The notes below the pieces were generated by a model that saw nothing but the letters and a program-made list of their open reading frames with translations, was not told the origin of the DNA and searched no databases. Shown here one piece after another: positions 1 to 23,500 of a stretch of DNA of 33,531 bases. The position numbers were made by a program, and so were the translations under genes. Each line of letters starts with the position of its first letter. Within the stretch, counting starts at the first letter, position 1. The DNA lies in assembly GCA_903869365.1 (NCBI GenBank), contig CAIPYV010000123.1, forward strand, positions 1 to 33,531. Direction: 5' to 3'. This stretch comes from an uncultured Chlorobiaceae bacterium (GTDB lineage Bacteria > Bacteroidota > Chlorobiia > Chlorobiales > Chlorobiaceae).

Positions 1-1638
1 ACTCACTCTAATTGGTGATAAAAAATATTCTGGTAGAAAAGTAATAATGCCAACACGAACAATTCCGAGAGGGCGTTCAAACTGCTCAAAATTATATGTT
101 AACCTTACCTTCTCGCTTTTAACATTAATAGCAATAGTTTTCTCCAGTATTCCATGAATAAGACGTACTGTTGCGCTAATCCACAATTCATTATCTTTAT
201 GCATAATTTTTGGCACCACCCATTCAAGATCGGTAACGCGACTTTGCTCTCCAGGAACCTCAATGATAACTCCACCTGAATAAAAGTCCGCTCCAAGAGC
301 AATATTATTAAAATATCCTTGCGGTAAGGTACCAATAAGAGGTTCAAAGTTATGCGAAATGAATGACAGAGATTTAATGGCAAGGCCTCGCCGTGCATTT
401 ACAACAAGATGGACTTTAGGAGTCTTTATTGACCACAATATCCCTTCATCATCCTGCGCAATCTGAACATTTTCCTCCCATATATCTTTATTGACGATTT
501 TTGCAGAAGGAAACTGCTCATTAAAATTTTGACCTGCCTGTATATTAATAACACGATCAAGAGCTTCTTTCCATCGATCGGCAGTAATGTGCGTGCGCAG
601 ATCACTCGACCATAGTTCGCAGAGTTCCCTCCAATTTTCATCAGAAGAATAGCCTTTATGCATTAAAGAGTGGTGTATCTGATGACATACAGTATTCAAC
701 CATAAATCGTCTCTGCCCGTAACAGCCCAACGGGTGATGTTGTATTTTGCCTGTTTTTTCACAGGGACTGGATGGCTTGCAGAAGTTAAACGAGCAATAT
801 TTGGACTTGAAGTAACTGTATTAATATTCAACGCCCGTGAAGGACTTAACCATTCAAGTCCGATCTTCTCTACCTTCAGCCTGTTACATATACGCTGAAA
901 CCGTTCCCACTCACCTTCTTGATGAAGTTTTGATTCAACGGTAAATCGACCTGGACGGTAATCAAAAATTTCAGCATCATTACAATAAATAGGCAACAAC
1001 GCCTGGTCCTTGGTTACGCGTCTTTGCACATACTCCATATACTCAGATACTGGAATATCACCATGAACAACCCGTTGCAAACGCTGAAACAAGATTGAAT
1101 CGGACCATAGTACTGGCAAAAACTTTTCCCTGCATCCCAAGGCATGGGTTGGAGTTGCTGAAAGTGGTGCGTTATCCAACCCTAAGGCAAGGCGAACATT
1201 ATCCCTGTCCATAATGATTCCTTTGTAACCAGCTTCCACATAGATATCAACCATACCGGACGAAAAGGCCATCTCGTTAACGAGCGCAATCCGAGGAGTT
1301 ACCCCCACCAACTGCCGATAAGCATCAAGTCCAAGCTTCTGATTCCAGTGATTCACTTCATAAGGAACCAGTGGCCCAATAATCTGAGACCATCCGCTAC
1401 CGATCAGTTCGCATTGATGAGCAGCAAGCATCCGTCGAAACCGCACAACCCACGATTGATCAAGTAAAGCAATTTGCTGAAGGGTCCATCCAGTCAACTC
1501 AATTCCTATGGGGATACCTGTTTTTTTTGCAAGTTCAAGCAATGGCCAGTAGCACTTGCTGATTACTTCCGGACGAGACTCTGTCTTTATCGAAGAGAAT
1601 GCCAAATTGAGGTGAAAAATCAGATAACCCTGCGCCAT
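1..1638 (-). CDS. GH57-like glycoside hydrolase/glycan-modifying protein (3' end beyond window)
   Basis: The frame is open from an ATG at 1638 to the left edge: 546 residues with no stop, so the C-terminus lies outside. The N-terminus (HLNLAF near residue 9), the block ELIGSGWSQIIGPLVP (77-92), NEMAF (121-125, E122 a candidate nucleophile) and YCNDAEIF (218-225, D221 a candidate acid) match the order of motifs in GH57-type (beta/alpha)7-barrel proteins. GH57 enzymes are alpha-glucan hydrolases or transferases, but members inside polysaccharide clusters have uncertain substrates. The start is 2 bases after the stop of the PseG-like gene, so it is probably translated from the same message. I infer a role in trimming or modifying the glycan made by this locus; substrate unknown. 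The residue roles come from motif memory, not an alignment. Confidence 0.72.
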   Translation of the reverse strand, partial: MAQGYLIFHLNLAFSSIKTESRPEVISKCYWPLLELAKKTGIPIGIELTGWTLQQIALLDQSWVVRFRRMLAAHQCELIGSGWSQIIGPLVPYEVNHWNQKLGLDAYRQLVGVTPRIALVNEMAFSSGMVDIYVEAGYKGIIMDRDNVRLALGLDNAPLSATPTHALGCREKFLPVLWSDSILFQRLQRVVHGDIPVSEYMEYVQRRVTKDQALLPIYCNDAEIFDYRPGRFTVESKLHQEGEWERFQRICNRLKVEKIGLEWLSPSRALNINTVTSSPNIARLTSASHPVPVKKQAKYNITRWAVTGRDDLWLNTVCHQIHHSLMHKGYSSDENWRELCELWSSDLRTHITADRWKEALDRVINIQAGQNFNEQFPSAKIVNKDIWEENVQIAQDDEGILWSIKTPKVHLVVNARRGLAIKSLSFISHNFEPLIGTLPQGYFNNIALGADFYSGGVIIEVPGEQSRVTDLEWVVPKIMHKDNELWISATVRLIHGILEKTIAINVKSEKVRLTYNFEQFERPLGIVRVGIITFLPEYFLSPIRVS

Positions 1639-1640
1639 AC

Positions 1641-2627
1641 CTAATCCATCATAGCAAAAACTGCCTGCACAAATTTATGATCACCCTGTACTGATAACTT
1701 CTTTCGAGCGCACTGTGAAAAAGAAGCTGCCAACAGATCGTTATACATTAATTTCTTTAGCTTATCCACTGCATCGATTTCATCCCTGGCTACCAAGGCA
1801 ACCCCTTCTGCGGCAATTACTGCGAGTTCCGCATCGTCTTTATTCCCGTATGGAGAAAACACAACCGTCGGCACACCATAATAGAGCAACTCAAAAAAAC
1901 TTACGCCATAAACGGTAATGGCATAATTTGAACTTACCATAAGATCGTCCAAACGAGATGGCGCTTGATGATTCATTATCGAAAACTTTGGAGAAACTGG
2001 AAACACCGGTTGTTCGGAATAAGGCCCCGTTACCCAATGCAGTTCAGTGTCAACTAACAGAGCTTCATTCAACAACATTGGCAATGACTTTCCCAAACCA
2101 GTGGCATCAGTCCCCCCGGTCAAAACAAGAACTTTCTTGCCATACATCCATTCAGAAAAAGGAGATATTACATTCAGCAGAAAACAGTCCCACCCATACA
2201 AAACGGGTACTGCACAACAAAACCCTTCTGGGGGCGAAAAACCAAATGAGGGTATAAAAACTAAATCTAAATTACCTTGATGTGTAATAAAGCCATCCAC
2301 ACTAATGATTTTGCAATGACCCTTCCTCAACTCTATCAAAAGTCTATCAATATCAGCGGGAACCAAACGTGGATGCAAATCAAATACAACTACCTTGGCG
2401 GCAGTAACCTGAGCAAACTCCGAAACTGATTCAAGCAAATTGTTCCCAAGCCCTATAAACATATGATCATACTCGCTTAAATCGGTACGTTGAATCGTTT
2501 CCCCCTGTATCAACAGGTGGACTTCAGCGCCAAGATGCTCACGAAAAGCTTTAGCAATAACAAGTGAGCGCGTCAAATGTCCAAGTCCCAGAGATGAACC
2601 AGCATGACAGACAATCAGAACATTCAT
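1641..2627 (-). CDS. PseG/SpsG-like nucleotide-sugar hydrolase or GT-B-fold transferase
   Basis: A 328-residue protein with the PseG layout. The N-terminal loop GLGHLTR (14-20) places a histidine at residue 17, as in the PseG family, where it is the catalytic base. A middle VFDLHP segment and a C-terminal half with VLTGGTD and YGVSFFELLYYGVPTVVF resemble the GT-B nucleotide-binding half. PseG removes UDP from UDP-2,4-diacetamido-2,4,6-trideoxy-altrose before condensation by PseI. SpsG relatives in spore-coat clusters are annotated as transferases. Its start overlaps the stop of the NeuB-like gene by 4 bases (ATGA), supporting a consecutive step. Sequence is divergent from canonical PseG, so exact substrate is uncertain. 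Confidence 0.7.
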   Translation of the reverse strand: MNVLIVCHAGSSLGLGHLTRSLVIAKAFREHLGAEVHLLIQGETIQRTDLSEYDHMFIGLGNNLLESVSEFAQVTAAKVVVFDLHPRLVPADIDRLLIELRKGHCKIISVDGFITHQGNLDLVFIPSFGFSPPEGFCCAVPVLYGWDCFLLNVISPFSEWMYGKKVLVLTGGTDATGLGKSLPMLLNEALLVDTELHWVTGPYSEQPVFPVSPKFSIMNHQAPSRLDDLMVSSNYAITVYGVSFFELLYYGVPTVVFSPYGNKDDAELAVIAAEGVALVARDEIDAVDKLKKLMYNDLLAASFSQCARKKLSVQGDHKFVQAVFAMMD

Positions 2628-3499
2628 GCAAGATCACCCTGACTCTGCAGTGCCCACTGAGCACGAATCTCTTTCATAGGGCGCAGTCCATCAGAAGGAT
2701 CTGCGCGCCACAAACGGTCTGGAAGTTCAGAGGAAACAGGTTCCTTGATACCATTGCCATCAGCTTCTAACCCTTTATTTACCTCTCGAATAACTTCACC
2801 AATTTGATGAGGCAGCCAACAATGGCCCGCTCCAAATTCTTCTCCCTTACCATCAAGATCAAGATGAAATTCAATTACCTGTGCACCCCAACGATGAATC
2901 GCCCGATAAATAACTGCTGGCTCCACCGTATGATCAGACCAACCTACTTCACAGCCGGTTGCATGTCGGATGGTCTCTATGGCAGCAAGGTTCGCCTCTT
3001 GGTATGGAGTTGGATATGCTGATGTACAATGCAGCAAGGTAGGCGAAAAACAACCATTCTCTCGAAGCACATCAACCGCATGTTTGATTTCGTCCATTGT
3101 TGCCATTCCGGTCGAAAGAATCACCGGTTTGCCTGTTCGTGCACATGCAGTAAGCAAGACGTCCCAAAGCAATTCGTAGGATGCAATTTTATAAAAAGTT
3201 ACATACTGTTCAAGCTCACTAACAGCATCAAGATAGAACGGGGTACAGGAAAAATCAATACCTACCTCACGACAACGTTGAGCAAGTTGTGGAACAAATT
3301 CCAGCGGCAATTCCCATTGCTTACGATTACGATGCCTCTCCGAACGGTCTAAAATTTCTCTTGAAAAAAGCTGATCAATCTTGAACAGTTGAAATTTTAC
3401 TGCAGAGCATCCAGCATTAGCCGCAGCATCAATAAAATCGATCGATCTTGACAAATTACGATCATGGTTGCTGGATACTTCAGCGACAAATTCAATCAT
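2624..3499 (-). CDS. NeuB/PseI-family nonulosonic acid synthase lacking SAF domain
   Basis: A 291-residue protein with the NeuB TIM-barrel signature. VSSNH (8-12), AVKFQ (33-37), WSDHT (187-191) and the EFH/GHCW histidines (212 and 226) sit where metal and phosphoenolpyruvate ligands lie in the family. These enzymes condense phosphoenolpyruvate with a six-carbon amino sugar to give a nine-carbon 2-keto acid. Typical NeuB/PseI proteins run about 335-350 residues and end in an SAF (antifreeze-like) domain. This one stops after the barrel, and the stop is followed at once by the PseG-like gene, so the short form is not due to the window edge. It overlaps the ATP-grasp gene by 4 bases. It is the only synthase seen here, so it may serve the pseudaminic pathway or a variant substrate. 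Confidence 0.82.
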   Translation of the reverse strand: MIEFVAEVSSNHDRNLSRSIDFIDAAANAGCSAVKFQLFKIDQLFSREILDRSERHRNRKQWELPLEFVPQLAQRCREVGIDFSCTPFYLDAVSELEQYVTFYKIASYELLWDVLLTACARTGKPVILSTGMATMDEIKHAVDVLRENGCFSPTLLHCTSAYPTPYQEANLAAIETIRHATGCEVGWSDHTVEPAVIYRAIHRWGAQVIEFHLDLDGKGEEFGAGHCWLPHQIGEVIREVNKGLEADGNGIKEPVSSELPDRLWRADPSDGLRPMKEIRAQWALQSQGDLA

Positions 3500-4719
3500 T
3501 CCTCAACCTTCACATAAATACATTTAAGTGCCTGATCTACCTGAATCAGAACCTCATCTCGATTATCCCCAGAGACAATCACATATCCAAATCTATCAGA
3601 ATGCATGCGAATCTTGGGCTGTAGCTCACCCTGTTTGCGGAAAAAACCATAAGAAAGCAAGCTTGGGATCTGCCTCAATTTCTCTTCTCCTTCTATACTA
3701 CTAATTATCCCATCAGGGGGAAACCAATAACGAATCGCCGTAGCTCGATGAAATTGTGGAATCAATTTGGAAGAAAAAACAGTTTCTCCCAAAGAATATG
3801 AGATAACTGCATCTACTAAACTGACTCCAGTAGCCGAAGGTATCTGATGTGTCGCAAACCATCCACCTGAAAGTCGAGCAGCAAGTTCAATAATCAGCGG
3901 TTGACCCGCATGATCTATAACAATATCCCCTTTAACAATGCCAGCAGTAATACCTATTGCAGCTGCCCCCCGAAGGATAACGTCATCTATCAACTCCCTG
4001 GTTTTTGCGTCGAGAGGAGCAGGGATTGTACCTCCATCTTCAATAATATTTGGCCTGAACTGCTCAAGACGGGCATAGTTTCGTTCAGCAATAGCGGGAG
4101 TAAAACATTTTCCATCAAGAATAAAAGATTCTGTGGAGAGCTGCATTCCCGGAATAAACTTTTCGAGAATCAACCGCCCGGAATCCCCCCAACTCTTTGA
4201 TTCTCCAAAAGCCCATTCCGAATCGACCTCGCTATTAATGAGTAATACCCCTCTGGCACCCCTTCCATCAACCGGCTTCAATACAAAATCCTGCTTACAG
4301 TCATCATTAAGGTAATCGCGTAACTGTGTTGCGGTATCGACCCTTGCAAACCATGGACAAGGCACACCCTCTGCGACAAATCTCTCTTTCATCAACAGTT
4401 TATCCGTAACACATGTTGCGGCCTCCAAGGAAATCGAAGGTAGAGCTAAAGAATGGGCAACACGAGCTACAGTAAACGGCACATCGTTGGCTATCGTCAT
4501 TACTCCATGCACTGGGTGTTCCTGATGAAACTTTAAGGCAGCCTTTTCAGTCGCATCAGCATCACGGGTAGAAACAAGAATTTTATAGTCGGCTAAATCA
4601 AACCCCGGAGCGTAGGAATCCATATCAGTACCTACGATAATCAGACCACGTTTTTTGGCCGCCTCATAGGCAGGAACCTGCTCCACCCCTGCCCCGACAA
4701 TCATCAGGGTTTTAGCCAA
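3496..4719 (-). CDS. ATP-grasp carboxylate-amine ligase-like protein
   Basis: The protein starts with a nucleotide-binding-like pre-ATP-grasp strand (TLMIVGAG) and has the ATP-grasp core: VTDKLLMKERF, VLKPVDGRGARGV, ILEKFIPG and IIELAARLSGG, the last carrying the metal-binding acidic residue. ATP-grasp enzymes activate a carboxylate as an acyl-phosphate and join it to an amine, thiol or other nucleophile. I chose the TTG at 4717-4719: it gives the expected family N-terminus and has a GGAGGG ribosome site 7 bases upstream, inside the end of the SDR gene. The longer in-frame ATG at 4782 would overlap that gene by 71 bases and adds residues unlike the family. It overlaps the NeuB-like gene by ATGA. 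A nonulosonic acid has a free carboxylate, so amidation or amino-acylation is possible but unproven. Confidence 0.78.
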   Translation of the reverse strand: MAKTLMIVGAGVEQVPAYEAAKKRGLIIVGTDMDSYAPGFDLADYKILVSTRDADATEKAALKFHQEHPVHGVMTIANDVPFTVARVAHSLALPSISLEAATCVTDKLLMKERFVAEGVPCPWFARVDTATQLRDYLNDDCKQDFVLKPVDGRGARGVLLINSEVDSEWAFGESKSWGDSGRLILEKFIPGMQLSTESFILDGKCFTPAIAERNYARLEQFRPNIIEDGGTIPAPLDAKTRELIDDVILRGAAAIGITAGIVKGDIVIDHAGQPLIIELAARLSGGWFATHQIPSATGVSLVDAVISYSLGETVFSSKLIPQFHRATAIRYWFPPDGIISSIEGEEKLRQIPSLLSYGFFRKQGELQPKIRMHSDRFGYVIVSGDNRDEVLIQVDQALKCIYVKVEE

Positions 4720-5461
4720 AATACATCCCTCCGTTAACGTTGATTGTTTGACCTGTGATATATGCAGCATCTTCGCTAACAAGGTATGCTACAGCTGAAG
4801 AAACTTCTGAAAGATGCCCAATTCTTCCAATGGGAATATTTTTTACTTTTTCTTTTCCTGCATCTGTATTTATTTCTTGAGCTGACATTTCCGTATCCAC
4901 TAAGCCAGGAGCAACAGCATTAGTTGTAATTCCTTTGCTTGAATAAACTTTTGCTAAAGAACGCGTCAATCCTATTAATCCCGCTTTAGAGACCGCATAA
5001 TGAATCTGGTTCACGCCACCCCATTGCCCACCAATTGATGTAATATTTATGATCCGCCCCCAACCAAGCTTCAGCATATCAGGCAACACTTCCTGGGCAC
5101 ATACAAAAGAACCTCGAAGGTTAATATTTAACATGTTATCCCAATCAGCATCCGTGATGGTCTCAAAAGGCTTCTCTTGCGCAATAGCAGCGTTGTTCAC
5201 CAGAACTGCAACTTTACCCCATTTTAATCTGACATTTTGCAATGCGGCATTGACACTACTTCTATCTTCGACAACCATTTGAACAACTAAAGCCTTACCG
5301 CCGTTTCCTATAATCAGGCTTGCAGTTTCTTCTGCCTTAACTCGATTTGTACAGTAGGTTATGACAACAGGATAACCTAAAGAGGCTAACGTTACAGCAA
5401 TACTTTTACCTATTCCGCGACTTGAACCAGTAACCAAAGCAATACGTTGATCGTGCATCAT
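4712..5461 (-). CDS. SDR-family oxidoreductase, FabG-like
   Basis: A 249-residue classical short-chain dehydrogenase. It has the TGSSRGIGKS cofactor loop near residue 11, the NNAA motif near residue 89, a catalytic serine (NITSIGG), YAVSKAG (Tyr-x-x-x-Lys) and the C-terminal GQTINVNGG typical of FabG-type proteins. It reduces a keto group or oxidises an alcohol with NAD(P). FabG in fatty-acid synthesis normally sits with fab genes. Here the neighbours are a transketolase pair (2 bases upstream) and the ATP-grasp gene (8-base overlap), so a sugar or sugar-acid ketone is the likely substrate. Two start codons, MM, lie together at 5461 and 5458; either would serve. Confidence 0.85.
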   Translation of the reverse strand: MMHDQRIALVTGSSRGIGKSIAVTLASLGYPVVITYCTNRVKAEETASLIIGNGGKALVVQMVVEDRSSVNAALQNVRLKWGKVAVLVNNAAIAQEKPFETITDADWDNMLNINLRGSFVCAQEVLPDMLKLGWGRIINITSIGGQWGGVNQIHYAVSKAGLIGLTRSLAKVYSSKGITTNAVAPGLVDTEMSAQEINTDAGKEKVKNIPIGRIGHLSEVSSAVAYLVSEDAAYITGQTINVNGGMYFG

Positions 5462-5463
5462 TT

Positions 5464-6438
5464 TTAAAATTTATTCTTACGAGCAATTGCCTTATAGGCC
5501 GCATCTGCAATATATTGCCCAGTTAATTGGTATTTTTCAGCTAATTCCTCCGGCTCACCAGATTCACCAAATGTATCTCGAACCCCTATAAACTCAATAG
5601 GACAAGGTGCATGCTGTACAATAACTTCTGCTACAGAGCCACCTAATCCACCGATAACATTATGATCCTCAGCTGTCACGATAGCACCAGTATCCCTTGA
5701 ACACTGCACCAACAGATCAACATCAATAGGTTTTATAGTTGACATATTGACCACTCGGGCAGATACGCCTCTTTTTTCAAGAATGGCGGCGGCATCTAAA
5801 GAACGGGCAACTTCGACCCCGCATGCTATAATTGAAACATCAAAACCGTCACGCAATACTTGACCTTTTCCAATCTTAAATGTATAATCCAAAGGTAGTA
5901 TACAACGCGAAGGACTTCTGCCAGTTCGCATATAAACTGGACCGTCAAAATCAAGTATCGCTCGCGTTGCTAAAGCTACTTCAAGGGAATCGGCTGGAGA
6001 AATTACTGTCATTCCCGGAATAGCTCTGAAGGCTGCAATATCCTCTAATGTCTGTGCAGAACCTCCATCCGGGCCAACATCAAGACCAGGGTGGCTTGCG
6101 ACAATTTTTACATTTCGCTTACAATAAGCTACCGATAGCCTTACCTGCTCATAGGCCCGCAAACAAAAAACACCGAACGCTGTAACAACGGGAATTAGTC
6201 CAGTGCTTGCCATTCCGCCAGCGGCGGCTATCATATTTTGTTCTGCAATCCCAAACTGAAAGAATCTATCAGGATACGCCTTTAAAAAATGATGCGCTCC
6301 AGTCCCTCCTGCAACATCAGCATCAAGTACAACAACATTAGGATAATGCTCAGCCAACTGCGATAAGGCTAAGCCAAAAGCTTCCCTTAGAGAATCTCCT
6401 GAATAAGCAATTAAAGATGGATCATTGTTTTGTGTCAT
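5464..6438 (-). CDS. Transketolase C-terminal subunit
   Basis: A 324-residue protein with the pyrimidine-binding and C-terminal domains of transketolase. GIAEQNM (63-69, E66) is the glutamate motif that activates thiamine pyrophosphate, followed by HPGLDVGPDGGSAQ and VISPADSLEV. It pairs with the N-terminal half encoded 4 bases upstream to make one heteromeric enzyme that moves a two-carbon ketol unit. Housekeeping transketolase is often a single chain of about 650 residues; split pairs are common in archaea and in specialised biosynthetic clusters. Its place among nonulosonic-acid genes suggests a sugar-tailoring role rather than the Calvin or pentose phosphate cycle, though that is inference. 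Confidence 0.9.
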   Translation of the reverse strand: MTQNNDPSLIAYSGDSLREAFGLALSQLAEHYPNVVVLDADVAGGTGAHHFLKAYPDRFFQFGIAEQNMIAAAGGMASTGLIPVVTAFGVFCLRAYEQVRLSVAYCKRNVKIVASHPGLDVGPDGGSAQTLEDIAAFRAIPGMTVISPADSLEVALATRAILDFDGPVYMRTGRSPSRCILPLDYTFKIGKGQVLRDGFDVSIIACGVEVARSLDAAAILEKRGVSARVVNMSTIKPIDVDLLVQCSRDTGAIVTAEDHNVIGGLGGSVAEVIVQHAPCPIEFIGVRDTFGESGEPEELAEKYQLTGQYIADAAYKAIARKNKF

Positions 6439-6442
6439 AGCT

Positions 6443-7288
6443 TCAATACCAAAAAGTACCGTTTAAATAACTTTGAATCTGAAGAGGAGTTGCTCCTAAA
6501 TCAAACAAGGCTTGTTCGAGTTGTTGACTTGTAATCTTAACACTACCGTGCCACGAAGGAACGCCCTCCATAAAAGAGACTCCCTTTCCTTTCAATGTAT
6601 GACCAATGATGATGCTGGGTTGGCCTTTATAATCTTTTGCTTTATTAATAGCGGCTTCTATTTCGTACTTGTTATGCCCATCTATTTCCTGAGCTATCCA
6701 ATTAAAGCTCTTCCATTTATCAACAATAGGCTCAAGTCCCATAACATTTTCATTGAGGTCATCGCTTTGCAACTTATTGTAATCAACAATTACACAAAGG
6801 TTATCCAACCTATAATGAGCAGCACACATAGCGGCCTCCCAGACTTCACCTTCCTGCATTTCGCCGTCTCCAATAATAACATATACACGAGAGTCAATAT
6901 TCTGATACCTTAACCCTAATGCCATTCCAACTGCAACAGAAAGACCTTGACCAAGAGAACCTGTACTGGTTTCAACCCACGGTGTATTAAGTACGTGAGG
7001 ATGACCTTGCAAAGGGCTTCCGAGATGACGTAAAGTTGTGGCATACTTAGGATCAATTAGCTCACTTCTCCCTGCAGCCGCATAAATAGATGCAACAGAA
7101 TGCCCTTTAGAAAGCACTAATCTGTTTCTATGGAGTTGTTGCCAATCGATTGTTTGATAAGGCAGTTCGTATTTCCAAAGATATGCAATAAAATCAGCGC
7201 AAGATAAAGAACCTCCGGGATGACCTGAGTTGGCATGGTATAGTAATGCCAGGGCATCTCTCCTAATAAGCGTTGCAAATTCAGTCAT
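6443..7288 (-). CDS. Transketolase N-terminal subunit
   Basis: A 281-residue protein holding the thiamine-pyrophosphate domain. It shows SGHPGGSLS (21-29), KGH (61-63), and the GDGE...N thiamine motif (GDGE at 140-143, N171). All the expected pyrophosphate and metal contacts visible by eye are kept, so it should be active with the partner encoded next. It is the first gene of the coupled run that continues through the SDR, ATP-grasp, NeuB-like, PseG-like and GH57-like genes. The 30 bases before it separate it from the FkbM gene. Confidence 0.9.
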   Translation of the reverse strand: MTEFATLIRRDALALLYHANSGHPGGSLSCADFIAYLWKYELPYQTIDWQQLHRNRLVLSKGHSVASIYAAAGRSELIDPKYATTLRHLGSPLQGHPHVLNTPWVETSTGSLGQGLSVAVGMALGLRYQNIDSRVYVIIGDGEMQEGEVWEAAMCAAHYRLDNLCVIVDYNKLQSDDLNENVMGLEPIVDKWKSFNWIAQEIDGHNKYEIEAAINKAKDYKGQPSIIIGHTLKGKGVSFMEGVPSWHGSVKITSQQLEQALFDLGATPLQIQSYLNGTFWY

Positions 7289-7318: not shown

Positions 7319-8392
7319 TTAAACATAAGCGTAAACGATTGTTTCAAATAAATGTTGAGAATGATGACCTAAATATAATTTATACTCAGGACAAAGTTCT
7401 TTGATTAAAATTGGCACCTCCCACAAGTCATCGAATTTATGATAAGAACATATTTGCAGGCGGGGTTGAGATTTTGAAATAGTGTTCGCAGCGCCTTTAA
7501 GTGCCTGAATTTCACTGCCTTCTATATCCATCTTAATTAAATCAATTTGCAACTCTTTTATTTGTGCAAATTCATCTATACTTGTAACATATATTTCACA
7601 TGTGCCAAATTCATCAATCTCATACTGCATCGTGTTATCTTTGTCAGTATTAAACTTTAAGAATGAAGTGTTAGAATATAATCCACTGTTTACTTGAAAT
7701 ACTGACAAAGATAAATTATTTGAAATCACATTCTGAGTAAGTCTTTTAAATGTTTCGTTTTCTGGCTCAAATGAATAAATATGACAATTTCCTTTTAGCT
7801 CACTACTGAATTTCAAAGCAGTATCACCTTCCCAAGCCCCTCCATCAATAATGGTATCACCAACCCGGGGCAGTACATATGGATGGAAATACTCCTCAAA
7901 TAGAGATGAGGTTCCGCCATTAGACCCTAACGAATAACGAAATTTAACTAAATGATTATATAATGAACGAGATTGATTATCATCAAAAAGCTGAAAAGCA
8001 TATTCAATTCGAGCCATTGCATCATCTAGGCCCTGAGGGTTAAAATGCCCAAACCACCTATTAAAATCAAAACAGAACCCAAAATAAAATAAACTCTTAA
8101 CGCCAATTTCTTTTAATTGAACAAAAATATCAGCATAATAGTCACTACTAACAAGAACAGGTATATCTGGATATTCCAGTAATTTCTTAGGTGACCATAT
8201 TACGACGCCATCAATGGAATTCCCATGTTTGCATATATCGTTATCACAAAAAAAAAGCACCTCTATTCCCTTTGATTTAAGCACCGAGAGAGCATATGTA
8301 CCAGAGAGAGAAGCACCAAAAAGAATAACTTTCCTGTTTGACTCAAGAAAACTGATTACATTTATAGGGTTGGATACTTTTATAAAATCCAT
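7319..8392 (-). CDS. FkbM-family methyltransferase with N-terminal Rossmann-like domain
   Basis: A 357-residue protein. The C-terminal half (about residues 170-357) is an FkbM-type SAM methyltransferase: DTIIDGGAWEGDTALKFS as SAM motif I and DLIKMDIEGSEIQALKGA as the family motif. The first 110 residues hold a small Rossmann-like domain (VILFGASLSGTYAL, FFCDND, LVSSDYY) like that found before FkbM or PglD-type domains in surface-sugar enzymes. FkbM proteins usually O-methylate sugars or polyketides. The gene is strikingly AT-rich: two sampled lines at its 3' end are about 25 and 35 percent GC. That points to a different origin from the flanking genes. Substrate unknown. Confidence 0.85.
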   Translation of the reverse strand: MDFIKVSNPINVISFLESNRKVILFGASLSGTYALSVLKSKGIEVLFFCDNDICKHGNSIDGVVIWSPKKLLEYPDIPVLVSSDYYADIFVQLKEIGVKSLFYFGFCFDFNRWFGHFNPQGLDDAMARIEYAFQLFDDNQSRSLYNHLVKFRYSLGSNGGTSSLFEEYFHPYVLPRVGDTIIDGGAWEGDTALKFSSELKGNCHIYSFEPENETFKRLTQNVISNNLSLSVFQVNSGLYSNTSFLKFNTDKDNTMQYEIDEFGTCEIYVTSIDEFAQIKELQIDLIKMDIEGSEIQALKGAANTISKSQPRLQICSYHKFDDLWEVPILIKELCPEYKLYLGHHSQHLFETIVYAYV

Positions 8393-8462: not shown

Positions 8463-9704
8463 TTAATACACTCGCACAGAATCATATAACAGTTTAATAA
8501 CAGTAGTCGGCACATGCATTTTCTCCGCTGCTTGAGCAATACTCTCTTGTCCCCCATAGCTTGAAATAACTAGAAGACAATCGTTCCAATCAATTTCTCC
8601 AAGAATTTCAGGAGAATGTATATGCAATCCACGCCAAGTTTTACCTTGTTTTAAAGGATCACTATCAACAATCACATACTCACGTTCATGGTCTTGATGA
8701 AACAGTGGTGTTACTTGATAGAGAAATTCACTATGCATACCTCCACCCCAAACTACCATTCGTGTTGTTTTAGGCCAAGATTCTAATTTTCGTGCAACCA
8801 CTGCAAGATTTTGATGCCAATGTTCAAAATATTCAGATACTTTTATTCGATCAGCTACATCTCCTATAATATCATCAGACGTTGCTATTGGCTTGGCCAA
8901 AATGCGATGCCCATTATAGTCCGGCATCTGTTGTCTTTCCAAAATCTCCCATCCGGCCCGTTTCATGAGATTTCCAAGACTATGCATACTAAAATGGGTC
9001 ATATGTTGGACTGACAAAAAACCATTTATATCATTGGTTTTCCCATTTTCAAGAACGGGTACTTCTATGACTAGCTTTGTTTCATGATGCGATATTGATC
9101 TCATATGTTTGAGAACTTCAAAGGGATTTGCAAGATGCTCAAGTACATGAAAAAGACTTATTACATCTGGCTCAATGGGAGACTGAAAAGTTTCAAATGC
9201 ACCATGAATAAGTTCAATATTATCACCGCACCTTTCTTGACCACGCGTAATTGATGGCGCATCAATATCTACCCCAATTTTACGGATATTATTAGGCAAA
9301 CGGTCTAAAAAACGACCATCATAACAACCAACATCAAGAAATACAGAACCTTCGTCGAGTAACCCTCTCTTAGCCAGCCAACCCTGCTGTTCTTTCGGAC
9401 GCCCTTGTGTTGAGCCATAACTTTGCCCTGCCTCTGCAAATAAAATGTCAAAGCCTGTCGATGTATAACAGGGATTCAAATAAACAGCATGACATTTCTG
9501 ACATTGTACTTCTCTAATCTCTGTTCGTTTAGGATTCTCTACTGAATCACTAAAAAACTGGAAATCGTCAAAAACAAGTATGGTTTTACATTCGAGGCTC
9601 CCACAGATAGGGCATGGTCTATACGCTACCAGTACTTGGTTCTTATGATTGCCGACAAAGCTGTTGAATTTTGCCCATGGTAATGGAACTGATGAACGTT
9701 TCAT
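8463..9704 (-). CDS. Zinc-finger class I SAM methyltransferase (sugar C-methyltransferase type)
   Basis: A 413-residue three-part protein. The N-terminal zinc-binding region has CPICG (C31, C34) and CQKCH (C68, C71). The middle is a class I SAM methyltransferase with VFLDVGCYDGRF (121-132) and LFHVLEHLANP. The C-terminus is a Rossmann-like domain (VVWGGGMHSEF, VIVDSDP) as in sugar C-methyltransferases of the TylC3/NovU type. Those enzymes methylate carbon or nitrogen on nucleotide-linked deoxysugars. A 70-base spacer separates it from the FkbM gene. Its upstream neighbour is a chimeric gene remnant that begins with a related zinc-binding N-terminus. Confidence 0.84.
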   Translation of the reverse strand: MKRSSVPLPWAKFNSFVGNHKNQVLVAYRPCPICGSLECKTILVFDDFQFFSDSVENPKRTEIREVQCQKCHAVYLNPCYTSTGFDILFAEAGQSYGSTQGRPKEQQGWLAKRGLLDEGSVFLDVGCYDGRFLDRLPNNIRKIGVDIDAPSITRGQERCGDNIELIHGAFETFQSPIEPDVISLFHVLEHLANPFEVLKHMRSISHHETKLVIEVPVLENGKTNDINGFLSVQHMTHFSMHSLGNLMKRAGWEILERQQMPDYNGHRILAKPIATSDDIIGDVADRIKVSEYFEHWHQNLAVVARKLESWPKTTRMVVWGGGMHSEFLYQVTPLFHQDHEREYVIVDSDPLKQGKTWRGLHIHSPEILGEIDWNDCLLVISSYGGQESIAQAAEKMHVPTTVIKLLYDSVRVY

Positions 9705-10009: not shown

Positions 10010-12088
10010 TTATTCTTTTGTTAATCGTTGAAATCCGGAGTGGTGAACTGGTGTTTGAAGCTGGCTTGCAGTTTTATCGGCGGCTAAAAGAGCAAATACA
10101 TCGTGTATAGCTTTTTGATAACTGTCAAGGTCTGCGCTTTGATGTGCGAGAGATGGCTTAAATTGCCGAAACCCTAAAAATCCCCATTTGAGCATTTCAA
10201 TTGTGAAAAGAGTCTCCAATTCTACTGCATTAGTACTCTTAAAGGAAAACGCGGCAAGTGATGGTAATCCTGTTACCTTGATTTCTAATTTATGCAGTTC
10301 AGCCGCATCTCTCCATATCTGCTTTACCCTATTCCCCGTTTCAATGAGATGCTTTTCAACACTTAATCTTTGATACTTTTTTACCGTTGCCAGAGCTGCA
10401 GTCGGGCCAACGCGCTCGGTCCAGTTTGTGCTGGAAATAAAGGTGGATTGTGCTGCCTGCATAACCTTTTCAATACCCATAACCACCGACATTGCATAGC
10501 CGTTGGCCATGGATTTTGCCAGTACCGCAATGTCTGGATATACACCATAGTTACGGTGGATGCCACCGGCACACATCCGGAATCCACTGGTAATTTCATC
10601 AAAAATGAGAACAGCACCGATCTCTGCAGCCAGCTCACTCAATGCTTTGAGGTATCCGGCCGGAGCATCTTCGCCTCTGGCTGGTTCTATTAGAATTGCG
10701 GCAATCTGCTTTTCCTTTCCTTTAATTTTTTCGCGCAGTGAATCAATATTATTCGCATCAAAAGGCATTGCTGTTCCGGCTAATCCCCTTGGGACTCCGT
10801 TCGGTTGAAGACCTGGCATGAGTTGACCATCGAGACCGGCACTGTCTGCCAAATTTGCGGCCAGGTACCAATCGTTCCAGCCATGATAGCCACTGAACAT
10901 GACAAGATCACGATGGGTATGTGCTCTAGCAATTCTGATGGCCATTCCCATGGCCTCTCCCCCACTTCTGGCATAGCGCACCATACCGAACCATGGATGA
11001 AGAGCAATAAGCGCCTCGGCCAATTCGACTTCTTCGGGACAGTTAAGAGAACTGTTGACCCCGTTGCGAAGAGCATTGACAACGGCATCATCAACTTCAT
11101 CATCTGCATAGCCAAGAATACAGGCACCTACTGCCATGATGGACATGTCGATAAACTCCCGTCCATCCATGTCCCATACCCTGCAGCCTTTGGCTTTGGA
11201 ATAATAGGAGGGCCATACTTCTGGAGCAAACATCTCTGGACGCTTTGAGAGAAGTTGCGTGCCTCCAGGAATAAGGTTTATTGCTCGTTTATACAGTGCT
11301 ACACCTTGACTTTGTTTAAGTTCTTCAAGAGTATACATTGTTTTATTATCATTTTTTAGTGACCGAAGATATCCCTCGTTTCGAATGATATCGCTGTTGA
11401 TAAGCATGAGGTCCGGTTCTTGCTCCAAAAGGAAGAGCACATCGGAAGCAAGAAATAGACTACCACTCCTCTGCAGCCTGGCGAAAACAGCCTGAAGAAA
11501 TTCGTAATCCCGGGGTTCATCAAGTGTCCAGCGATGGTGTGATAGTCCCGTAAATTTTTTCAACCCCCCATTCTTAAAAAGTTCGGGATGTTTTTCGAGA
11601 TAGGGCCCAACATGCTCTCTCTCTGACTTTAACCTGGCTTCGCGCCAAGCCCGCTCAAGTGCGGCAAACTTAAAAACTGTACAATCAAGACCATCGGGAA
11701 ATTCGCCTGAGAGACCATAATAATCATACCCTCCCTCCAAAAAGCCGGTAACAACTTCGTCAACAATTGTCGGATCGATTGCAGGACAATCGGCAGTAAT
11801 ACGCACAACAGCATCGGGGTGATCAGTTTTAGCGGCCTGATAGTATCTGTCGAGAACATCATCAAGACTGCCTCGATAACAGCTTATACCTTGTGATTCA
11901 CACCATGACTGAATAATGTTGTCTGTTGGATCAGTTGATGTGGCAACGATAACTTTGGATATTGTTGTACATACCTGTATACGAGTTACTACATGCTCAA
12001 GCACTGGTTTACCCACCAACTGCATTAAAACCTTTCCTGGCAATCGGACTGAACTCATTCTCGCCTGAATGACAGATATGACATTCAT
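10010..12088 (-). CDS. SpsF-type cytidylyltransferase fused to class III (GSA-type) aminotransferase
   Basis: One open frame encodes two enzymes. Residues 1-245 are an SpsF-like nucleotidyltransferase (IQARMSSVRLPGKVL, VRITADCPAIDP, HRWTLDEPRDYEF). Residues 250-690 resemble glutamate-1-semialdehyde aminomutases and class III aminotransferases: RSGGEAM, FSGYHGWNDW, IFDEITSGF (D501 in the longer numbering) and LAKSMANGY with the PLP lysine (K529). The start at 12088 forms an ATGA overlap with the upstream gene and gives MNVISVIQARM, the usual SpsF beginning. An in-frame ATG at 12100 would add four residues. The pair probably aminates a sugar and activates a product with CMP or another nucleotide. 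Which substrate goes with which domain is unknown. Confidence 0.88.
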   Translation of the reverse strand: MNVISVIQARMSSVRLPGKVLMQLVGKPVLEHVVTRIQVCTTISKVIVATSTDPTDNIIQSWCESQGISCYRGSLDDVLDRYYQAAKTDHPDAVVRITADCPAIDPTIVDEVVTGFLEGGYDYYGLSGEFPDGLDCTVFKFAALERAWREARLKSEREHVGPYLEKHPELFKNGGLKKFTGLSHHRWTLDEPRDYEFLQAVFARLQRSGSLFLASDVLFLLEQEPDLMLINSDIIRNEGYLRSLKNDNKTMYTLEELKQSQGVALYKRAINLIPGGTQLLSKRPEMFAPEVWPSYYSKAKGCRVWDMDGREFIDMSIMAVGACILGYADDEVDDAVVNALRNGVNSSLNCPEEVELAEALIALHPWFGMVRYARSGGEAMGMAIRIARAHTHRDLVMFSGYHGWNDWYLAANLADSAGLDGQLMPGLQPNGVPRGLAGTAMPFDANNIDSLREKIKGKEKQIAAILIEPARGEDAPAGYLKALSELAAEIGAVLIFDEITSGFRMCAGGIHRNYGVYPDIAVLAKSMANGYAMSVVMGIEKVMQAAQSTFISSTNWTERVGPTAALATVKKYQRLSVEKHLIETGNRVKQIWRDAAELHKLEIKVTGLPSLAAFSFKSTNAVELETLFTIEMLKWGFLGFRQFKPSLAHQSADLDSYQKAIHDVFALLAADKTASQLQTPVHHSGFQRLTKE

Positions 12089-13650
12089 AATTGTGACCAA
12101 TAGGATGGGTTGAGAAGCATTTCATCTTCAACATGAAAATCAGGCTTACTATGCACTATATCACTTCCGGATGCAATAATAATTTCCTGTAATTGAGAAG
12201 TACTATCCACTCCAACAATAAATTTGTCAATTTCTTGATACGTTAGCAAAAAACTTATACAAGCCCGGATTGGTGATATATTCTCTTGCGATAGCCAACT
12301 ATACCACTTTTTCCACAACTTTCTCCATTTTAAAAACTTAGATGGGATGGCATCGAATGGCATCAATAATAAGCCTTGCAAAAAAACTGAACGTACATGC
12401 AGTTCACAATCATGATCTTTAAGCTTATACAACCATCCAGTGGTTTTTAAGCGTTGATCCATGATATTAAAAGGGGCTTGCACGATATCGAACTGATATT
12501 GATGAATCAGCTCATCCAATTGGCTAGGAGCATAGATTGATACTCCGATTTTCTGTACTACACCAGATTCTTTCAAATATTGCAATGCTTGATAAAGTTT
12601 TTTTCCATTCAAACCTAACAACTGCTCCGGGCGATGCAGCAACAGACCATATAGCTTAGCAACACCAAGCAGAGAAAGAGATACAGCAATCTGCTCTTTC
12701 ACCCACTCACCTACATTTGTACAATCATCGGGCAGTGCAAACAATTTGGTTACCACGTTATAGTCTTTAACTCCAATTTTACCCAGAGTGGCTTCGCTTT
12801 CTCCATAAGCTCTTGCAGTATCCAATACGTGTATGCCATTTGCAGAGGCCAGTTGCAATATTTTCTGTGCTTCATGAGAATCAATCTGACCGGTTTGATT
12901 AGCAATTCCGTATTGCATCCCAAACTGGGCGGTACCAATACAAAGTTTAGATACTCTCTTCTTTTGAGACTGTATATATGCATACATGGACTCAGCTACA
13001 CTAAAATCCTCAAAGGTATCAATATCCTGCACTTTATGCCTGGGCAGAATAAGCGGCAAGGATTTATGTGAAAATACAGGTAGATCATTCAATACTGCAT
13101 CTGGGGTAGCAAAATAAAATTGCGCGGCATCATGATATGCAACTTCTAAATCCTGGGATCTTGTCTTGTAATATCTCTTCTGAAACATTACGACATCGCC
13201 ATGTTTCATTATTTTCAGAGCTCTTTGAATAGGAAAAGGATACGTTGTAACCGTAAAGGAGATCTTGCGACCACTTTTTACAAGCATCGATAAACCTTGA
13301 ACAAGATCAGCTGATGTAATAAATGGAGCAGTAGCATATATAGTGCAGACAAAATCAATCTGTCCAAGATGTTCAATGCCCCATTGTAATGCATGTTTAA
13401 TGACTGGACCGGTGGCAACATAATCATCTGAGAGCTCAGATGGTCGCATAAACGGGACTTCAGCACCTAAGTTTTTTGCAACTTCAGCGATTTCTTTGCA
13501 GTCAGTGGATACAATGATGTGATCAAACAACCCTGATCTCTGGGCTGCTTCTATAGACCAAGCTATCAACGGCTTACCAAAAAAGTTTTTGATATTTTTC
13601 TTTGGTATACGCTTGCTTTGCCCACGTGCGGGAATAATTGCGATGTTCAT
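12085..13650 (-). CDS. PseF/NeuA-type CMP-nonulosonate cytidylyltransferase fused to aldo/keto reductase
   Basis: A 521-residue fusion. Residues 1-228 are a cytidylyltransferase: IPARGQSKRIPKKNI (6-20), STD (48-50), and ILPRHKVQDIDTFEDF (201-216) with the family DID motif. That domain activates the nonulosonic acid as its CMP form. Residues 233-521 are an aldo/keto reductase: CIGTAQFGMQYG, VLDTARAYGESE (D277 and Y282), TKLF (K302) and LLHRPE (the catalytic-tetrad histidine). The two are joined by only a few residues. An AKR beside a CMP-sugar gene suggests reduction or oxidation of the sugar. It is 34 bases downstream of the methyltransferase and overlaps the next fusion gene. Confidence 0.9.
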   Translation of the reverse strand: MNIAIIPARGQSKRIPKKNIKNFFGKPLIAWSIEAAQRSGLFDHIIVSTDCKEIAEVAKNLGAEVPFMRPSELSDDYVATGPVIKHALQWGIEHLGQIDFVCTIYATAPFITSADLVQGLSMLVKSGRKISFTVTTYPFPIQRALKIMKHGDVVMFQKRYYKTRSQDLEVAYHDAAQFYFATPDAVLNDLPVFSHKSLPLILPRHKVQDIDTFEDFSVAESMYAYIQSQKKRVSKLCIGTAQFGMQYGIANQTGQIDSHEAQKILQLASANGIHVLDTARAYGESEATLGKIGVKDYNVVTKLFALPDDCTNVGEWVKEQIAVSLSLLGVAKLYGLLLHRPEQLLGLNGKKLYQALQYLKESGVVQKIGVSIYAPSQLDELIHQYQFDIVQAPFNIMDQRLKTTGWLYKLKDHDCELHVRSVFLQGLLLMPFDAIPSKFLKWRKLWKKWYSWLSQENISPIRACISFLLTYQEIDKFIVGVDSTSQLQEIIIASGSDIVHSKPDFHVEDEMLLNPSYWSQL

Positions 13651-15407: not shown

Positions 15408-15418
15408 GACCCATGTCG

Positions 15419-16469: not shown

Positions 16470-17642
16470 CTAACCTCTTAGCAATTTGACTATTGTCTCA
16501 AAGACATAATTTTGCTGCACGTCAGTCAGGCCAGAATAGATCGGTATGCTGATAGCCTCTGAATAATATGTCTCTGCCTGTAAACAGTATCCAGCGATGA
16601 ATCCCATCTTTTCATAATAAGGCTGACGATACACAGGAATGTAGTGCAAATTAACAAGTACCCCTTCAGTACGAAGGGCATCATACACTTGTCGATACGT
16701 CTTCTCGATTTTACCAAACTTCAATCGAATAACGTAAAGATGGTAGCTAGAATAACCGTCGGGATGTTGCCATGGGGTAACTACAGGAATATCTGAAAAC
16801 ATCTGGTCATACCGATTTGCAATTGCATGCCGTTTGACAACAAACTCATCAAGCCGCTTCATCTGGCTCAATCCTAAAGCAGCATGGATATCGGACATCC
16901 TGTAGTTAAAACCAAGACCTATCTGCTGGTAGTTCCATAGCTCTTCTGCAGGACGATGGTACATATCTGTGACTTCAGTTGTAATACCATGACTACGAAG
17001 TAGACGCATACGGCCGGCCAATCTCTCATCATTTGTCAGTGCCATGCCTCCCTCCCCTGTTGTGATGATTTTGACTGGATGAAAGCTAAATACAGTAATA
17101 TCGCTATAGTAACAGTTGCCAATAGGTTTGTTTTGATAACGACCACCAATAGCATGAGAGGCATCTTCAATGATTTTGAAACCGTATCGATGGCTTAACA
17201 CATGCAAACTCACCATGTCACAAGGTTGACCACATAGATGGACTGGAATAACGACTTTTGGCAGGGTACCTCCCTTTTCAGCCTGTTCAAGCTTTTCCTG
17301 CAGACGATCAACGCTCATGTTATAACTTTGGGGATCAATGTCCACAAAATCCACTTTTGCACCACAATACAAGGCACAGTTAGCACTAGCCACAAAAGTG
17401 ATCGGTGTGGTCCAGACGACATCACCTTTGCCTACTCCCAAAGCAAGACAGGCAATATGCAACGCGCTCGTTGCGCTGTTGACCGCTACTGCATACTTAG
17501 CACCACAATAACTTGCAACAGCTTTTTCAAATGCAGGAACAACGGGGCCTTGTGTTAAAAAGTCCGATTGCAACACATTAACGACTGCATCAATATCAGC
17601 TTGGTTAATATCCTGATGTCCATACGGGATCATCGGTGTCAT
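16470..17642 (-). CDS. pseC: UDP-4-amino-4,6-dideoxy-N-acetyl-beta-L-altrosamine transaminase
   Basis: A 390-residue DegT-family aminotransferase. It transfers the amino group from glutamate to C4 of the 4-keto sugar made by PseB. The family start IPYGHQDINQADID, SATSALHIA (56-64), TTPITFVASANCALY (78-92), IIEDASHAIGG (157-167) and SFHPVKIITTGEGG with PLP lysine K191 all agree with PseC. Length matches the family. Its ATG overlaps the pseB stop by 4 bases (ATGA); a second ATG three codons in is also possible. It acts in the cytoplasm as the second enzyme of CMP-pseudaminic acid synthesis. Confidence 0.92.
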   Translation of the reverse strand: MTPMIPYGHQDINQADIDAVVNVLQSDFLTQGPVVPAFEKAVASYCGAKYAVAVNSATSALHIACLALGVGKGDVVWTTPITFVASANCALYCGAKVDFVDIDPQSYNMSVDRLQEKLEQAEKGGTLPKVVIPVHLCGQPCDMVSLHVLSHRYGFKIIEDASHAIGGRYQNKPIGNCYYSDITVFSFHPVKIITTGEGGMALTNDERLAGRMRLLRSHGITTEVTDMYHRPAEELWNYQQIGLGFNYRMSDIHAALGLSQMKRLDEFVVKRHAIANRYDQMFSDIPVVTPWQHPDGYSSYHLYVIRLKFGKIEKTYRQVYDALRTEGVLVNLHYIPVYRQPYYEKMGFIAGYCLQAETYYSEAISIPIYSGLTDVQQNYVFETIVKLLRG

Positions 17643-22911: not shown

Positions 22912-22930
22912 GAAATATTTTTTTCTGTTA

Positions 22931-23500
22931 TCACAAGCTTTTAATATAGTATACACCGGTAGCACCAGAAACAATCAAACCAATATAACGAGCAATCATT
23001 TCGATGGTTACACCGTTTTTTTCCGGAATGATGACGGTGTCGTTCGGCTTGACAACAATAAATGCAGAACGATCACCTTTATCGAAGTATCCCCTCAGAT
23101 CAACTTTATAGGCCTGTATACCATTACTGTCAGGTTTTTTCCTCGAAACAAGCACTTTTTTTAAATTTGCATTCTCCTTGATACCCCCAGCAAGTGTAAT
23201 AATGGAGGCGAAATCGGCATTTTCCTGAACCAGTACTTGACCCGGCTTATTAACCGCGCCAAGTACGTTAACAATCATGAGAATGTTTCCAACGTCGTCA
23301 GTAAAATATGAGTCTTGAACCAAGGGGTAATTGGGGCCAGTCAGTGCTTTATAACTTGAGGATGGTTCAGAAGAAACCGGAAAGGAATTTTGACTGAGTG
23401 AAGAACTCCCCTGATCAGCTAATGCCTGGGTGTTCCAGCAAGATAAAAACAGGCATTGCAGTGAAAGAGTGAAAACTGTAACAATTTTTAGAAAACGCAT
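22931..23500 (-). CDS. Small SLBB-domain exported protein (polysaccharide export related)
   Basis: A 189-residue protein with an N-terminal signal peptide (FLKIVTVFTLSLQCLFLSC), where FLSC could be a weak lipobox. It has one SLBB-like domain near residues 75-155: VNVLGAVNKPGQVLVQENA, FASIITLAGGIKENA, then VKPNDTVIIPEKN. The end (MIARYIGLIVSGATGVYYI) is a hydrophobic segment. Wza-type export proteins pair an N-terminal Poly_export domain with SLBB domains; that first domain is missing here. It lies 19 bases upstream of the Wzc-like start, so the two are probably cotranscribed and act together in export. Confidence 0.8.
   Translation of the reverse strand: MRFLKIVTVFTLSLQCLFLSCWNTQALADQGSSSLSQNSFPVSSEPSSSYKALTGPNYPLVQDSYFTDDVGNILMIVNVLGAVNKPGQVLVQENADFASIITLAGGIKENANLKKVLVSRKKPDSNGIQAYKVDLRGYFDKGDRSAFIVVKPNDTVIIPEKNGVTIEMIARYIGLIVSGATGVYYIKSL

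Follow-up and report, generated by a model that had tools for sequence, protein, structure and literature searches.

A pseudaminic-type gene cluster in which a split transketolase, an SDR and an ATP-grasp ligase may take the place of PseH

The published precedent for the gene set considered here is sfmABCDE (SO_3261-3265) of Shewanella oneidensis, a flagellin modification operon with available knock-outs and glycan masses (PMC3765264). Its genes encode a 290-aa NeuB-type synthase, a TPP enzyme, an SDR of the 3-oxoacyl-ACP-reductase type, a SAM methyltransferase and an ATP-grasp protein, and the organism possesses PseB and PseC and no clear PseH, PseG, PseI or PseF (PMC3765264). The flagellin nonulosonate is plain mono-N-acetyl pseudaminate, C11H18N2O6, with one acetyl, a basic group and no added carbons. 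The flagellin also bears a nitrogen-free methylated part of C9H16O7, C10H18O7 or C11H20O7; neither the structure of this 236-264 Da part nor the reactions were assigned in the 2013 paper (PMC3765264). Deletion of sfmB, sfmC or sfmD abolishes the whole flagellin modification and soft-agar motility, whereas the mutant in sfmE, the ATP-grasp gene, still swims and shows a smaller mass shift (PMC3765264). The first-pass annotation of the present locus knew of no described pathway with this set of genes, for which the sfm operon is, its reactions aside, a precedent (PMC3765264). In the open literature nonulosonic acid, transketolase and ATP-grasp were not found together, and pseudaminic acid with ATP-grasp led to the sfm paper.

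The window, the whole stretch of DNA that was analysed, is one entire contig of 33531 bases (G000:C123). All seven ORFs of the first-pass annotation were confirmed in it on the minus strand, the described gaps of 2-4 bases or overlaps of 4-8 bases hold, and the profile matches agree with the families that it named. The N-terminal (ThDP-binding) subunit of a split transketolase, TktN (6443..7288; PF00456, 2.7e-45), is separated by 4 bases from the C-terminal subunit TktC (5464..6438; PF02779/PF02780), whose active site is altered, and 2 bases further lies a FabG-like SDR reductase with YxxxK (4712..5461; PF13561, 5e-60). The SDR gene overlaps by 8 bases that of an ATP-grasp carboxylate-amine ligase (3496..4719; PF02655 and PF18603, an L-amino-acid-ligase C-terminal domain) when the TTG start at 4719 is taken in a frame open from 4782. 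Overlaps of 4 bases then join the ligase to a short NeuB/PseI-type synthase of 291 aa (2624..3499; PF03102, 7.9e-64), and this in turn to a divergent PseG-like UDP-sugar hydrolase (1641..2627; TIGR03590, 4.8e-14, below cut-off), which a GH57-like gene follows after 2 bases (1..1638; PF03065, 4.4e-12). The last ORF is incomplete because the contig ends within it; full-length relatives have ~650-670 residues, and the structural model of the one in G014 matches 1k1x with Z 27.9 over its full length. E122 and D221 are invariant in 16 homologues and correspond in the alignment to the catalytic Glu/Asp pair of the 4-alpha-glucanotransferase from T. litoralis, and the GH57-like protein is thus predicted to have the family fold and its catalytic pair.

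PseB, PseC and PseF, absent from the first-pass annotation, lie at 18637-12085 and are oriented like the seven-gene run, so the pathway begins upstream. PseB, the inverting UDP-GlcNAc 4,6-dehydratase (17639..18637; TIGR03589, 521.8 bits against a cut-off of 407.75), PseC, the aminotransferase that forms the 4-amine (16470..17642; TIGR03588, 556.1 against 423.5), and PseF, a cytidylyltransferase fused to an aldo/keto reductase of PF00248 (12085..13650; TIGR03584, 307.5 against 205.7), all exceed curated cut-offs in one region, which therefore constitutes a pseudaminic-type cluster. The same strand carries an SpsF-type cytidylyltransferase fused to a class III (GSA-like) aminotransferase (10010..12100; PF02348, PF00202), a class I SAM methyltransferase with a Zn-ribbon-like start (8463..9704; PF13489, 1.3e-17), which likely acts on the acid discussed below, and an FkbM-family methyltransferase (7319..8392; TIGR01444, 2.4e-20), present in loci L052 and L074 too, which likely O-methylates that acid. 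Upstream of the cluster, also on the minus strand, are wzc/wza-type export genes (20491..23500), recognised from the translation read by eye and from 40-42% similarity to an equivalent pair in G010; the product here is therefore probably destined for surface polysaccharide.

The PseH profile TIGR03585 matches nothing in G000, G014 or G010, and across 11 cluster-holding genomes no match exceeds its cut-off; in L041, L047, L050 and G010 the genes run from PseB to GH57 with no recognised acetyltransferase. Two core enzymes are homologous yet divergent: the PseI profile gives the window NeuB 171.4 bits (cut-off 340.3), and TIGR03590 gives the PseG-like protein 52.6 (cut-off 153.6). The NeuB has no C-terminal SAF (antifreeze-like) domain, profile matches stopping at model position 260-271 of ~328. 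The PseG-like protein retains the GLGH motif and is predicted to adopt a GT-B fold (pLDDT 94). Its model matches PseG 3hbn (Z 22.4, 3.1 A over 261 residues), a score equalled by other GT-B enzymes, and the fold search therefore says GT-B only; its sequence finds nothing at 0.001 among solved structures. A viral origin was rejected, since viral contigs contain no gene for a relative of this protein.

Both halves of the transketolase have their best solved relatives in Carboxydothermus hydrogenoformans (the N-chain 6yak for TktN, 3.7e-74; 6yaj for TktC, 1e-89). When the window pair was aligned with seven cluster homologues, the C. hydrogenoformans enzyme and human transketolase, TktC was seen to carry Ala for His in DGGSAQ, where transketolases conserve an active-site His/Gln (yeast H481), and Gly for the phosphate Ser in AGGTG, and to keep the Arg, His and Arg of the donor phosphate site (equivalents of human R318, H416 and R474). 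Six of the eight pairs, that of the window included, combine Ala and Gly with the kept phosphate residues; L069 and L072 do not have the His to Ala change. The cluster enzyme thus appears to be a specialised transketolase variant, with the domains and phosphate residues of the family and without its His and Ser. Among the other thiamine enzymes of such clusters, the VRYPRG arginines are absent from all four DXS-type proteins, and all 14 ALS-type proteins have Phe instead of Trp574. The ALS-type enzymes retain an Arg matching the acceptor-carboxylate Arg of AHAS. A second, housekeeping split transketolase, 50% identical, is located at C12 of the same genome and found in two sister genomes too, and a DXS-sized relative is located at C30; the cluster pair is therefore an extra copy. 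That the pair serves solely central metabolism and has its place in the cluster by accident, as its retained sugar-phosphate site might suggest, is very improbable and was rejected: the housekeeping pair exists separately in the genome and its sisters, the active-site changes are common to cluster copies, and in unrelated phyla, too, such a pair adjoins SDR, ATP-grasp and short NeuB.

This recurrence was followed in 53 short-NeuB loci plus the window (54 rows) from more than ten phyla. The pattern is a TPP enzyme, be it split transketolase, DXS-type or acetolactate-synthase-type, adjoining an SDR and an ATP-grasp protein, each of a single family. Of the 22 loci having both genes, 20 separate TPP enzyme and SDR by no more than 26 bp, and in 16 of 20 no more than 20 bp lie between SDR and ATP-grasp; ATP-grasp is present in 34 of the 54 short-NeuB rows versus none of 24 ordinary-NeuB loci. 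The gene order is above chance, because short-NeuB relatives in many phyla hold the three genes together, and the conservation that the first-pass annotation had suggested looking for exists, the homologues being more than unrelated neighbours. Some TPP-type loci have no PseC or a different SDR spacing. In other loci the module position is filled by uronate/aldonate-type enzymes (UxaC, KduI, mannitol-DH family); L047, from Methylomicrobium sp. wino1, is of the UxaC type. The ATP-grasp, whose nearest solved relative is the L-amino acid ligase 3vot (2e-16), forms separate clades for the UxaC type (100/99), the KduI plus two SDR type (100/100) and the Gfo/Idh type (100/100), and the TPP-type rows cluster, the long branch L073 excepted. 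For the same 31 loci the ATP-grasp tree needs four changes of module label, the minimum, versus six on the NeuB tree, and the window and G010 share 76% identity in NeuB and 27% in ATP-grasp. The acid-building genes appear to have been exchanged between species, with the sugar-making core constant, in many bacterial phyla. Within one ATP-grasp group the Tkt, ALS and DXS rows are intermixed, the window Tkt row being sister to the G014 ALS row (their ATP-grasp proteins are 78% identical) and the L074 Tkt row to the L078 ALS row, and the SDRs of the window and of every TPP-type locus fall in one clade (100/99); therefore the three TPP classes would feed the same later enzymes.

What acid they might make can be approached through S. 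oneidensis. By family, size and order the window and sfm are alike in having short NeuB, TPP enzyme, SDR, methyltransferase and ATP-grasp together, and L074 repeats the sfm gene order with Tkt replacing ALS. They differ in that Sfm has an ALS-like enzyme and the window a split transketolase, in that the window cluster retains PseF, PseG-like and GH57, and in that it adjoins wza/wzc-type rather than flagellar genes. A 274-genome sample (the class of L047) searched for Shewanella gave other flagellar loci and none recognisable as S. oneidensis. Of 18 acids tried, each combined with a C2 from pyruvate, reduced once and joined as an amide, hexuronate or its ketogluconate isomers alone yield the Sfm series, with 1, 2 or 3 CH2. 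The published formula corresponds to hexuronate plus C2 from pyruvate plus 2H, bound as an amide and methylated one to three times, and we therefore propose that the TPP enzyme and SDR extend a hexuronate, which the ATP-grasp couples. This identity would be a retro-fit to the published formula, which heptonate- or KDO-like acids made without a C2 step, and also a methylated octose, match as well.

Two other placements of the C2 unit have to be weighed. In yersiniose, YerE and a reductase partner add a two-carbon branch to the sugar. An ALS-type TPP enzyme with an SDR resembles this YerE/YerF-type logic, and such a pair could likewise put a branch on a sugar nucleotide or nonulosonate precursor, the ATP-grasp attaching an unrelated amino or organic acid. 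Loss of all modification in the sfmB, sfmC and sfmD mutants, unlike sfmE, is what core-sugar enzymes would give; if these three genes only made the acid for SfmE, all four mutants should be alike, unless, as an extra assumption, SfmE couples unfinished acids into dead-end sugars. A branch on the core is nevertheless unlikely, being disfavoured by the S. oneidensis core without extra carbons; a C2H4O branch on a hexose or deoxyhexose does not yield C9H16O7, as only an octose-like residue does, and the ATP-grasp clade tracks the precursor module, for which uronate enzymes can stand in. Alternatively, 2-oxo acids could be the starting material: the TPP enzyme would join them into an acetolactate-like compound, the SDR would reduce it, and the ATP-grasp would couple the resulting small, branched hydroxy acid to the amine. 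The AHAS-like Arg of the ALS-type enzymes is consistent with this, and so short a route needs no uronate source; there is no obvious common source of free hexuronate at any locus, and no evidence points to GH57 as one. We consider it improbable to a similar degree, as the S. oneidensis formulas are not obtained from small 2-oxo acids, acetolactate could already come from housekeeping ALS, and the normal acceptors of DXS and transketolase are aldehydes.

Our preferred reading, with a probability of roughly 0.55, is a pseudaminic-type pathway in which an exchangeable acid module and an ATP-grasp amide ligase replace the PseH step. PseB and PseC would produce UDP-4-amino-4,6-dideoxy-L-AltNAc. With a ketose phosphate as donor, the split transketolase would transfer a glycolaldehyde C2 to the aldehyde group of some carboxylic acid, for which a hexuronic acid is the likeliest candidate; the SDR would reduce the ketone formed, and the neighbouring methyltransferases may O-methylate the resulting octonic-type acid. 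The ATP-grasp would convert the carboxylate of this acid through an acyl phosphate into an amide; the nitrogen would be that of the free 4-amine, which PseH acetylates in the usual pathway and which becomes N7 of the finished nonulosonate. The PseG-like hydrolase would then take off UDP, the short NeuB condense the sugar with PEP, and PseF form the CMP-sugar, destined for surface polysaccharide, or flagellin in many relatives. The amide-ligase logic is well supported, and the product of the TPP enzyme and SDR is rather probably the acid that the ATP-grasp couples; that this acid is a C2-extended hexuronate has somewhat less than an even chance. The scheme assigns no step to GH57. The C2 transfer, reduction, nonulosonic condensation and carboxylate activation of the first-pass annotation were right in kind; C2 addition to the nonulosonate precursor is probably not, because the Sfm core is plain mono-N-acetyl pseudaminate (PMC3765264).

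More tentatively, the loci may form a combinatorial acyl system, in which three thiamine-enzyme classes extend a hexuronic acid by C2, the acid is then completed by reductase and methyltransferases, and an ATP-grasp specific to the module attaches it to the nonulosonate amine, with modules exchanged between phyla around a constant core. If this is true, the lengthening of uronic acids by C2 into octonic-type acids, and the use of these as N-acyl groups, would be new chemistry, and each sfm gene of S. oneidensis would gain a reaction, the 236-264 Da part included, which would also account for a genome without clear PseH. Flagellar and surface sugars would then be varied by exchange of a single cassette for acid synthesis together with the ligase that fits it, and the model yields exact mass predictions for cultured strains.

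Compared with the pseudaminic pathway PseB-C-H-G-I-F of Campylobacter and Helicobacter, the window possesses equivalogs of PseB, PseC and PseF together with PseG-like and PseI-like proteins; it differs in having an ATP-grasp instead of PseH, and in a PseG-like protein and a SAF-less NeuB far under the equivalog cut-offs. The split transketolase of C. hydrogenoformans (6yaj, 6yak), the top match of both halves, likewise consists of two chains, whereas in the window enzyme Ala and Gly replace the active-site His and Ser, respectively, and the pair is an extra genomic copy. The L-amino acid ligase BL00235 (3vot) shares the PF18603 type of C-terminal domain with the window ATP-grasp, but at about 63 bits only, and the substrates are expected to differ. 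Finally, C. jejuni pseudaminate carries a 5-N-(2,3-di-O-methylglyceroyl) group dependent on the aminopeptidase-like Cj1295 (PMC3068675); this system is a chemical precedent, in that the amine of a pseudaminate bears an O-methylated hydroxy acid in amide linkage, as in the proposed product, and it differs in the N5 position, in its dependence on Cj1295 and in that no TPP enzyme is described for it.

The seven genes belong to a real, conserved and modular pathway, which is a previously undescribed variant of the Sfm/pseudaminic kind. All lie on the minus strand; the window is itself an entire contig of 33531 bases, taken from a draft genome of 2.93 Mb. The tight packing described in the first-pass annotation holds (gaps of 4, 2 and 2 bases; overlaps of 8, 4 and 4), the ATP-grasp gene starting with TTG at 4719, and family profile searches agree with its assignments of split transketolase, SDR, ATP-grasp, NeuB, PseG-like protein and GH57. 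It overlooked three genes upstream in the same direction, namely PseB (521.8 bits, cut-off 407.75), PseC (556.1, cut-off 423.5) and a fusion of PseF with an aldo/keto reductase (307.5, cut-off 205.7); since all three exceed their cut-offs, the core is of pseudaminic type. The PseG-like protein (52.6 bits vs. cut-off 153.6) and the NeuB, scored as PseI (171 vs. 340) and lacking a SAF domain, are divergent. PseH (TIGR03585) gave zero matches in this genome and two sister genomes, and none above cut-off in eight more cluster-bearing genomes.

Two adjoining cytidylyltransferase fusions, SpsF-aminotransferase and PseF-aldo/keto reductase, occupy 10010-13650, and in relatives PseF alone alternates with aldo/keto reductase, SpsF and aminotransferase. 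Within the cluster at 14421-16462, a TIGR04422 PLP-enzyme neighbors a TIGR04421 FemAB protein, both above the curated cut-offs of these hypothetical equivalogs. The GH57 gene is incomplete and runs off the contig end. Its relative in sister genome G014 gave a good predicted model (pLDDT 87) that aligns along its entire length with Thermococcus litoralis 4-alpha-glucanotransferase (Z 27.9; rmsd 16.6 Å, probably reflecting domain orientation). E122 and D221 are unchanged in all 16 homologues. The protein is likely to be a retaining glycosidase or transglycosidase that is active. The modeled GT-B fold of the PseG-like protein is compatible with PseG, not specific to it.

Conservation of the gene order, which the first-pass annotation proposed to search for, was found: TPP enzyme, SDR and ATP-grasp recur together at short-NeuB loci of many phyla. 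With the short NeuB as query, 84,980 species genomes gave 53 loci of its clade (49–83% identity), spread over more than 10 phyla. We annotated 54 rows (scan loci plus the window, minus two loci duplicating sister genomes) with HMMs built from the loci, and found ATP-grasp in 34, SDR in 31, GH57 in 32, PseG of either type in 36 and a TPP enzyme in 25. Every TPP locus has an SDR gene or a fragment of one, except L061, which ends 440 bp past the TPP gene; the four TPP loci without ATP-grasp (L061, L068, L069, L080) all end near the TPP gene or SDR. ATP-grasp is absent from all 24 ordinary-NeuB loci of the same scan, whose ALS-like matches score 134–460 vs. 731–892 in cluster loci. At L092–L098, L101 and L111, beside ordinary full-length NeuB, an ALS-like TPP gene is frequent (mostly about 400 bits) with no cluster-type ATP-grasp, a separate NeuB and TPP association.

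Short NeuB occurs in 4 of 394 genomes of the phylum, a rarity that suggests horizontal transfer. The window's genome encodes another short NeuB-like protein, of 289 aa, in L035 (G000:C36:10000-22000) at 5661-7275, adjoining a HAD-phosphatase-like ORF judged by eye; such proteins of about 290–310 aa recur throughout the genus and may be KDN- or KDO-type synthases. Of the 54 rows, 17 have flagellar or Maf genes no farther than about 10 kb away. The cluster in the window neighbors wza/wzc-type export genes, which makes a polysaccharide the likelier target.

The genes between Pse core and short NeuB differ among loci. Eight rows have a split transketolase there, 14 an ALS-type and four a DXS-type enzyme; four have UxaC with SDR and methyltransferases, three a KduI-like protein with two SDRs, two a Gfo/Idh-like protein and two an IMPase, which in one case is accompanied by an enzyme of the mannitol-dehydrogenase family. 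Between the window and sister genome G010, NeuB is 76% identical but ATP-grasp only 27%, whereas ATP-grasp is 78% identical between the window (transketolase) and G014 (ALS-type). Over the same 31 loci, module labels change four times on the ATP-grasp tree, the minimum, vs. six on the NeuB tree, although long branches (L073, L044) make details of the former less reliable. The three TPP labels intermix within one ATP-grasp group and within one SDR clade (support 100/99). On our reading of these comparisons, ATP-grasp would recognize the product of the module, and the three TPP classes would yield similar products; its proposed role as an amide ligase is well supported by the comparative data. 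At L072:7634-11976 (Bacteroidetes), two TPP classes occur together, DXS-type and split transketolase, next to SDR and ATP-grasp. L039:4399-9936 and L052:6840-9989 carry Fe-ADH-like gene(s), a short TPP-binding gene (phosphonopyruvate-decarboxylase-like by eye) and full-length NeuB, possibly a second PEP-condensing chain-extension route to the acid.

Active sites of the TPP enzymes were compared at residues whose functional roles in transketolase, DXS and AHAS we assume from general knowledge of these families. The cluster transketolase, closest to the split enzyme of C. hydrogenoformans, retains the residues that correspond to human R318, H416 and R474; human S345 is replaced by Gly, and the human Q428/yeast H481 position by Ala, as in five other cluster transketolases, while L069 and L072 retain His. 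Both arginines of VRYPRG are missing in all four DXS-type enzymes, and all 14 ALS-type enzymes share an inserted stretch and Phe at plant AHAS Trp574. A housekeeping split transketolase is located on another contig (C12) of the genome.

The best-documented relative, sfmABCDE of Shewanella oneidensis, comprises genes for a NeuB protein of 290 aa, a TPP enzyme resembling IlvB, an SDR of the 3-oxoacyl-ACP-reductase type, a methyltransferase and an ATP-grasp, in an organism without clear orthologs of PseH, PseG, PseI and PseF (PMC3765264). Its glycan consists of C11H18N2O6 plus a nitrogen-free C9H16O7, C10H18O7 or C11H20O7, differing by methyl steps, and the 274 part behaves as though it bore a free amine after loss of the outer part (PMC3765264), which we infer to be an acyl group leaving an amide as a lactone. 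Hexuronate (C6H10O7) plus C2H4O and 2H minus H2O gives C8H14O7, and one, two or three CH2 then give all three formulas exactly. When 18 candidate acids were combined with a pyruvate-type donor, the only fits were hexuronate and the ketogluconates isomeric with it; by the same arithmetic, octose and hepturonate- or KDO-derived acids without a C2 step also match. A uronate-derived acid would be our choice because other modules hold UxaC, KduI and mannitol-dehydrogenase-family enzymes. Deletion of sfmB, sfmC or sfmD abolishes the modification wholly and that of sfmE partly (PMC3765264), so the model needs an extra assumption, namely that SfmE would couple unfinished acids into dead-end products. 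A chemical precedent for such acyl attachment is found in Campylobacter jejuni, where di-O-methylglycerate N-acylates pseudaminate (PMC3068675).
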